The position numbers were made by a program, and so were the translations under genes. From Pseudomonadota bacterium (GTDB lineage Bacteria > Pseudomonadota > Gammaproteobacteria > Pseudomonadales > Halieaceae), in the NCBI GenBank assembly GCA_002862405.1, contig PKCZ01000145.1, forward strand, positions 1 through 54,987: a DNA stretch of 54,987 nt, given 5' to 3'. Numbering within the stretch: position 1 is the stretch's first letter; the number at the start of each line of letters is the position of its first letter. Shown in pieces: positions 47,133-50,796 of the stretch. The notes under the pieces were generated by a model. That model did no database searches, was not told where the DNA came from, and was given only the letters and a program-made list of their open reading frames with translations.

Positions 47133-47285
47133 TTACATTCCGAACCAGGGCTGCCAAAGCCAAACAGCAGCGTGAGCGCAGCTCGCAATAAACACAAACG
47201 TCCACATCCCTAGTTCGTAAGACTTCATAAACTCGCTAGCTTCGCTATCCGTCAGCCCCGACATACCTACATTTTCATCACTCAT
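47133..47285 (-). CDS. pufB: Light-harvesting complex 1 beta chain (50 aa; not in ORF track as such)
   Basis: MSDENVGMSGLTDSEASEFMKSYELGMWTFVFIASCAHAAVWLWQPWFGM*, good RBS GGGAGG. Confidence 0.95.
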   Translation of the reverse strand: MSDENVGMSGLTDSEASEFMKSYELGMWTFVFIASCAHAAVWLWQPWFGM

Positions 47286-47312
47286 GGTTTACCTCCCATG
47301 TAGTAGTTCGCG

Positions 47313-47336
47313 ATTTGTCGCAGCTCGGTAACAAAT
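47313..47336. promoter_or_regulatory. Candidate PpsR/CrtJ operator upstream of pufBA
   Basis: ATTTGT-CGCAGCTCGGTA-ACAAAT; TGT-N12-ACA core with 6-nt dyad arms, ~28 nt upstream of pufB start. Confidence 0.55.
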
Positions 47337-47354
47337 ACCTTGATACGACGTCCT

Positions 47355-47392
47355 TCAACGGACTTTGGGTGAAAACACCGTAGCTCCGTTGA
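47355..47392 (-). other. Stem-loop in pufC-pufB spacer
   Basis: TCAACGGA ... GGTG-AAAA-CACC ... TCCGTTGA (8-bp outer stem, inner 4-bp tetraloop stem). Confidence 0.6.
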
Positions 47393-47456
47393 TCTTCCCG
47401 GAGAGACGTCTGTTTTAGCACGCTACCCTGGGAGATACGTCCACACCGTAATGTGG

Positions 47457-47485
47457 TAACGAGGGCAGAGCAGATGCCCTCGTTA
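47457..47485 (-). other. Strong intercistronic hairpin between pufC and pufB
   Basis: TAACGAGGGC-AGAGCAGAT-GCCCTCGTTA perfect 10-bp stem, no T tract. Confidence 0.75.
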
Positions 47486-47514
47486 TGTAATTCATTTACT
47501 CTCTGCCGAGTTCT

Positions 47515-50532: not shown

Positions 50533-50796
50533 TTAAATCTTCATGAAGGCGTAGGGCGCTACGCTGTGCGCTGCCCGCTTAGCCTCCTGCCAACAGTTAA
50601 GTTCGTGTTGCCGCACCAACTTCACTCGCCTAATTACTGCCTGCCCCAAAAACCACAGGAAAACAGTGATAAACAGCAGACGAAACTGCAGGTGTTCCCA
50701 GACAGTTTTACGCTCTGTATGTCGCTTACTCGTGGTCATACTTCCTCCCGTCATCGGCGTTTGCCGTGCCGCATTGTCGTAGTTTTCTTGACTCAT
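50533..50796 (-). CDS. pufQ: PufQ-like protein (single TM, 87 aa)
   Basis: Position between bchZ and pufL with 4-nt overlap to bch[21 protein letters not shown] and C-terminal [14 protein letters not shown] resemble PufQ. Confidence 0.65.

Follow-up and report, generated by a model that had tools for sequence, protein, structure and literature searches.

Segmental stability of the puf mRNA is a textbook case of one transcript giving rise to unequal amounts of protein. In Rhodobacter, where this segmental stability has been described, RNase E processes the puf mRNA at AU-rich sites, which affects the ratio of the LH1 antenna to the reaction centre (RC) (PMC6238624; PMC10253847), and in R. capsulatus and R. 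sphaeroides a hairpin lies between pufBA and pufLM (Klug 1987; Chen 1988, as cited in PMC10253847 and PMC5927463). A known route for downstream genes is that of papBA, in which RNase E cuts just before a 5′ protective hairpin (PMC5927463), while in the cip-cel operon of Clostridium cellulolyticum stem-loops set stoichiometry through selective RNA processing and stabilisation (PMC4423207). Chromatiaceae have the order pufBA-LMC-BA, with extra copies of pufBA after pufC (PMC10609205).

In the NOR5/OM60 clade the gene order pufLMC-BA is a characteristic trait (PMC3176799), and phototrophic Halieaceae, which harvest light with bacteriochlorophyll, make up a major group among the aerobic phototrophs of the sea (PMC3666943). 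Luminiphilus syltensis has LH1 as its only light-harvesting antenna (PMC3679898), so that pufBA codes for the entire antenna. The gene order in Halieaceae is thus opposite to that of Rhodobacter, yet LH1 is still needed around each reaction centre, and a conserved RNA element at the RC/LH1 boundary makes the question of how stoichiometry is kept after a change in gene order testable through defined helices.

The puf operon and its intercistronic spacer

The window (the whole stretch of 54,987 nt analysed here) belongs to the genus Luminiphilus according to a genome search, and its named relatives include L. syltensis NOR5-1B and strain HTCC2080. Its puf operon runs on the minus strand in the order pufL-M-C, a 229-nt spacer and pufB-A (Table 1). 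Between a BchZ-like gene and pufL lies an 87-codon ORF (50533-50796, minus strand) that has a single probable membrane helix and matches nothing in Pfam or NCBIfam; in other bacteria this position is occupied by pufQ.

Table 1. Features of the puf operon and of the pufC/pufB spacer in the window
Feature	Position	Strand	Evidence or remark
pufL	50424-49600	minus	Pfam PF00124
pufM	49583-48609	minus	Pfam PF00124
pufC, RC cytochrome	48612-47515	minus	PF02276, 4e-134
pufB, LH1 beta	47285-47133	minus	PF00556, 7e-6
pufA, LH1 alpha	47059-46856	minus	PF00556, 7e-13
Structured intercistronic spacer pufC/pufB (the element)	47286-47514	minus	MFE z = -4.18; covariation; CM R1 match 274 bits
P0, 4-bp stem right after pufC stop	47498-47511	minus	Double changes in 3 of 4 pairs
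AU-rich unpaired linker 5′ of H1, candidate site of RNase E entry	47486-47497	minus	GAAUU motif
H1, 11-bp hairpin, no following U tract	47457-47485	minus	Double changes in 5 pairs
H2, CCACA...UGUGG hairpin	47441-47456	minus	Double changes in 2 pairs; 97% paired
H3, long helix, arms hold most of the direct repeats	47393-47435	minus	Double changes in 5 pairs; 94% paired
H4, compound stem-loop	47355-47392	minus	Two helices, together 7 pairs with double changes
H5, hairpin ~30 nt 5′ of start codon	47317-47349	minus	97% paired; CM R2
Start-codon hairpin CAUGG-GAGGUAAA-CCAUG, SD in loop, AUG in stem	47283-47300	minus	Nearly invariant
pufB Shine-Dalgarno (SD) GGGAGG(U)	47292-47297	minus	-11.1 kcal/mol

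A reading made from the letters of the window before any comparison with relatives (hereafter the sequence-only reading) had described this spacer as highly structured. Its placement is right, and the description is borne out by folding: the spacer has an MFE of -82.5 kcal/mol (z = -4.18), none of 200 dinucleotide shuffles is as stable, and 240 tiles of the same length from the window have a mean z of only -0.29 (s.d. 0.99, lowest -3.0). The full model consists of six helices and one further hairpin, at the start codon of pufB, arranged after the pufC stop as P0, the AU-rich linker, H1, H2, H3, H4, H5, a leader of ~16 nt and the start-codon hairpin. Three of these helices had been named from the letters, namely a perfect hairpin (H1, with all 11 pairs perfect), a CCACA/TGTGG stem (H2) and a compound stem-loop (H4), and all are present; P0, H3, H5 and the start-codon hairpin were found by folding. 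The operon lies on the minus strand, and the stems had been written as the reverse complement of the RNA, which leaves their pairing unaffected. Two direct repeats that had also been pointed out (47400-47410 and 47431-47441) do exist, but for the most part they form the two arms of H3, and relatives do not retain them as repeats; we therefore reject them as a protein-binding repeat.

Close relatives carry GGTAAAACC in the pufB leader where the window, at 47287-47291, has GGTAAACC and is one A short, which shortens the loop of the start hairpin and puts the upstream ATG out of frame. This upstream AUG, part of CAUGGG, was considered as the real start of pufB and rejected: of the three lineages of the genus introduced below, only groups 1 and 2 have it in frame, it is out of frame in the window, and in group 3 it has no reading frame of 10 codons. 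Nor does the spacer hold a conserved small ORF, as its reading frames are broken between close relatives.

The spacer is a set of conserved and covarying helices

Among 140 Halieaceae genomes pufC is present in 47, and from the loci fetched we extracted 44 pufC-pufB spacers (143-233 nt; 43 distinct), which sort into three lineages inside the genus of the window plus other genera. Strong folding is general, with z < -2 in 40 of the 43 distinct spacers (all but L029, L030 and L043) and a mean z of -3.5.

Twelve sequences from 12 related species of the window's own lineage (group 1) form alignment A1, in which the 69-pair structure is paired in 95.5% of cells and 23 pairs show double changes, in 41 cells compared with 12.2 ± 2.7 after shuffling; sliding the structure along the alignment yields only 3-11 cells. 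The sequence-only reading had proposed covariation among relatives as one check of its stems and had counted its absence as part of what would refute them; compensatory changes are indeed present in these stems alone (11 pairs in 19 cells, compared with 5.8 ± 1.7 after shuffling). Since the stems had been named before any alignment existed, this covariation is independent of a structure fitted to the alignment. Two separate Luminiphilus lineages, aligned as A2 and A3, show 24 pairs in 71 cells (25.7 shuffled) and 9 pairs in 15 cells (6.5 shuffled), respectively, each exceeding all 500 shuffles. Within variable pairs, G-U cells outnumber A-C cells on the sense strand by 52:17, 51:20 and 31:8 (134:45 in total), which points to the sense strand as the folded one and is supportive rather than independent evidence, as the structures were fitted on that strand.

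The two ends of the spacer have evolved differently. In the 5′ part the sequence evolves fast and the hairpins are retained, and outside the 3′ module most of the sequence differs between lineages while the structure persists, as expected for a mechanical role. In the 3′ module (H5 plus leader) sequence is kept as well, as CGUCG...CGRCA followed by CAUGGGAG...ACCAUG, at a nearly constant distance to the AUG in all three Luminiphilus lineages. These share the outer stem of H5, GUCGYA/UGCGRC, with an exchange of A-U and C-G between lineages. The start-codon hairpin has a loop of 8-11 nt among relatives and an invariant stem, so that covariation cannot test its pairing. Group 3 spacers (L014, L018-L025, L044-L047) hold a conserved, near-perfect central palindrome, CACTCGCGAGTG or CACTCTCGAGTG, that may form a tetraloop hairpin or serve as a protein site.

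In a search of the 140 genomes, the CM of the complete element (R1) has a single match in each of 28, all within the window's genus and located at the puf junction wherever that junction was read, and the CM of the 3′ module (R2) matches strongly only at pufB. No family of Rfam 15 reaches its gathering score in the spacer (best match E = 7, 11.9 bits compared with 40), and a riboswitch-like conserved unpaired core was not found, as outside H5 and the leader no sequence is shared between groups. There is thus hardly any room for doubt that the spacer is a set of conserved, covarying RNA helices on the sense strand, and it stands at the boundary of the RC and LH1 genes in every phototrophic Halieaceae genome with a readable junction.

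Operons without pufC retain the spacer

In five Halieaceae genomes (L116 (2220-2451), L117, L118, L119 and L120), all of them MAGs, the operon is pufLM-BA without pufC, with spacers of 179-336 nt before pufB. In the first, recognised by its match to CM R1, a spacer of 179 nt separates pufM from pufB, and no remnant of pufC is seen between the two genes. Its H5, leader and start hairpin are retained, while the 5′ part has diverged and the upstream helices are not clearly homologous. A search with reaction-centre proteins brought up the other four as pufLM-spacer-pufBA operons (spacers 283-336 nt); in L117-L119 the start-codon hairpin is absent, and the spacer of L119 has a z of -1.15. That pufBA is preceded by a long spacer whether or not pufC is present indicates that the element belongs to the RC/LH1 boundary. 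The genomes without pufC apparently fall into three or more distinct lineages, and the C-terminus of their PufM is altered or truncated; in published tables pufLMC is one unit in the phototrophic strains examined.

The pufB translation signal

In the window the pufB SD (-11.1 kcal/mol) is stronger than those of the other puf genes (-6.1 to -7.7 kcal/mol), and the same is seen across relatives, where its mean is -10.4 kcal/mol compared with -6.6 to -8.3 kcal/mol for pufL, M, C and A. It is usually the strongest of the operon, with exceptions in Congregibacter-like and some other genomes (L028, L029, L039). The arrangement CATGG-SD-CCATG is not a general motif of the photosynthesis cluster, as a second near-match in the window is a chance occurrence inside a UbiA/BchG-like coding region.

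A proposed role in favouring pufBA at the mRNA level

On balance we lean towards the reading that the spacer acts in cis as a structured mRNA element which separates the reaction-centre part from the antenna part of the puf transcript and favours pufBA at the mRNA level. What tips us towards control at this level is the combination of a structure conserved despite drifting sequence, a position at the junction of genes needed in unequal amounts and the strong pufB SD. In such a mechanism the primary pufLM(C)BA transcript would be cleaved within the spacer or shortly 5′ of it, giving a pufBA product that begins with stable hairpins near its 5′ end; these would slow renewed attack by enzymes of the RNase E type, so that the pufLM(C) part would decay faster than pufBA, and 5′ protection together with the strong SD of pufB would yield many LH1 subunits per reaction centre. 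Processing with pufBA as a stable 3′ segment, one of two routes put forward in the sequence-only reading, would fit the anatomy of the locus.

A candidate entry site for RNase E is the AU-rich linker that precedes H1 in group 1, in which GAAUU fits the RN/WUU motif and has an accessibility of 0.74 in the window; the motif is not retained in every relative, and no RNase E motif was found at one common position across all lineages. This lack of a conserved motif counts against the proposal, as do genomes such as L028, L029 and L039, in which the pufB SD is not the strongest, and the spacers with z above -2 (L029, L030, L043 and L119). Moreover, H1 lies directly 3′ of the pufC stop and might just as well shield pufLMC at its 3′ end, with the opposite effect on the ratio.

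Alternative explanations

This last point leads to the possibility that the structure is a barrier or insulator, which blocks 3′-5′ exonucleases (and so guards pufLMC after cleavage) and avoids Rho loading, with no differential effect in favour of pufBA. Such a role would account for the strong hairpin that immediately follows the pufC stop in each of the three groups, without a U tract and thus like 3′-protective hairpins (PMC5927463), and for a structure that is conserved where the sequence is not. It leaves unexplained, however, why an H5 and leader module adjoining pufB is conserved and why a lineage without pufC retained this module though its 5′ part diverged, and a short spacer would be the simplest way to escape Rho. 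We consider a mere barrier unlikely.

Equally unlikely, in our estimate, is a pufBA promoter inside the spacer, with the folds forming the 5′ UTR of its transcript and the ratio set by transcription. The spacer is long enough for a promoter, pufBA follows immediately, and unusual promoter types would lie outside the reach of our scans; the separate promoter that the sequence-only reading offered as its second route nevertheless finds no support. We found no sigma-70-like site in the spacer region of the window, and the best-scoring sites of the 43 spacers do not surpass those in shuffles (mean p 0.58) and are inconsistent in position, so that an internal sigma-70 promoter is rejected. The window does hold a PpsR-like palindrome, ATTTGT-N12-ACAAAT at 47313-47336, its sole exact occurrence of TTTGT-N12-ACAAA, but all relatives lack it, including those with near-identical sequence around it, and a PpsR/CrtJ operator (TGT-N12-ACA) upstream of pufBA is therefore rejected as private to the window.

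It is also conceivable, with still lower probability, that control is translational, with the start-codon hairpin and a longer-range pairing into the first pufB codons regulating initiation, perhaps via an RNA-binding protein or small RNA. In nearly all Halieaceae the AUG is indeed part of a stem of 5 bp whose loop holds the SD, in group 3 six extra pairs join the leader to codons 4-6, and a loop varying between 8 and 11 nt fits an RNA structure better than an operator of fixed spacing. The stem is weak, however (about -4.6 to -5.6 kcal/mol), it is missing in the pufC-less lineage L117-L119, its invariance puts it beyond a test by covariation, and CAUGGGAGG may be conserved merely as an extended SD. 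An intrinsic terminator or attenuator between pufC and pufBA can practically be dismissed, as the several G+C-rich hairpins present include none followed by a U tract, and termination would reduce pufBA, contrary to what a ring antenna needs.

Comparison with known systems

The cip-cel operon resembles the Halieaceae locus in that it codes for a multi-subunit complex and has stem-loops between its genes, and differs in organism and enzymes and in that processing sites have been mapped in cip-cel alone.

The Chromatiaceae are similar in that pufBA follows pufC after a spacer of similar size. Among six such spacers examined from Chromatiaceae and Chromatiales (L081, L085, L087-L089 and, from a Chromatiales MAG, L114:4577-4801), four fold strongly (z of -3.9, -2.4, -4.6 and -2.1, all < -2). 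CM R1 has no match in the downstream spacers of Chromatiaceae, and these bacteria differ in keeping the upstream pufBA and in having no CAUGGGAGG leader in the spacers read. The Halieaceae arrangement may descend from a downstream copy of pufBA of the Chromatiaceae kind.

With papBA the locus shares a single operon, an intercistronic structure and a downstream gene needed in excess, as well as a stable structure shortly upstream of that gene, H5 preceding the AUG by ~30 nt in each of the three groups. The papBA structure is one helix, in contrast to the several conserved here.

The comparison with the Rhodobacter hairpin, already drawn in the sequence-only reading, is apt, as in both cases structured RNA with a stable hairpin and no terminator U tract stands at the LH1/RC boundary of the puf transcript. 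In Rhodobacter, however, pufBA lies upstream and has its 3′ end guarded, whereas here pufBA lies downstream and the spacer would be at the 5′ end of its segment; the function of the Rhodobacter hairpin is proven, while that of the Halieaceae spacer we infer. If we are right, the spacer works like the Rhodobacter hairpin and papBA, yet differs from the Rhodobacter element in having pufBA on its other side. Tentatively, and with somewhat less confidence than in the role in favour of pufBA itself, we suggest that this is an undescribed family of Halieaceae intercistronic RNAs, a puf stoichiometry device that might have been rebuilt in mirror image, in which a 5′-protective multi-hairpin module and a start-codon hairpin replaced the 3′ hairpin of Rhodobacter once the antenna genes lay 3′.
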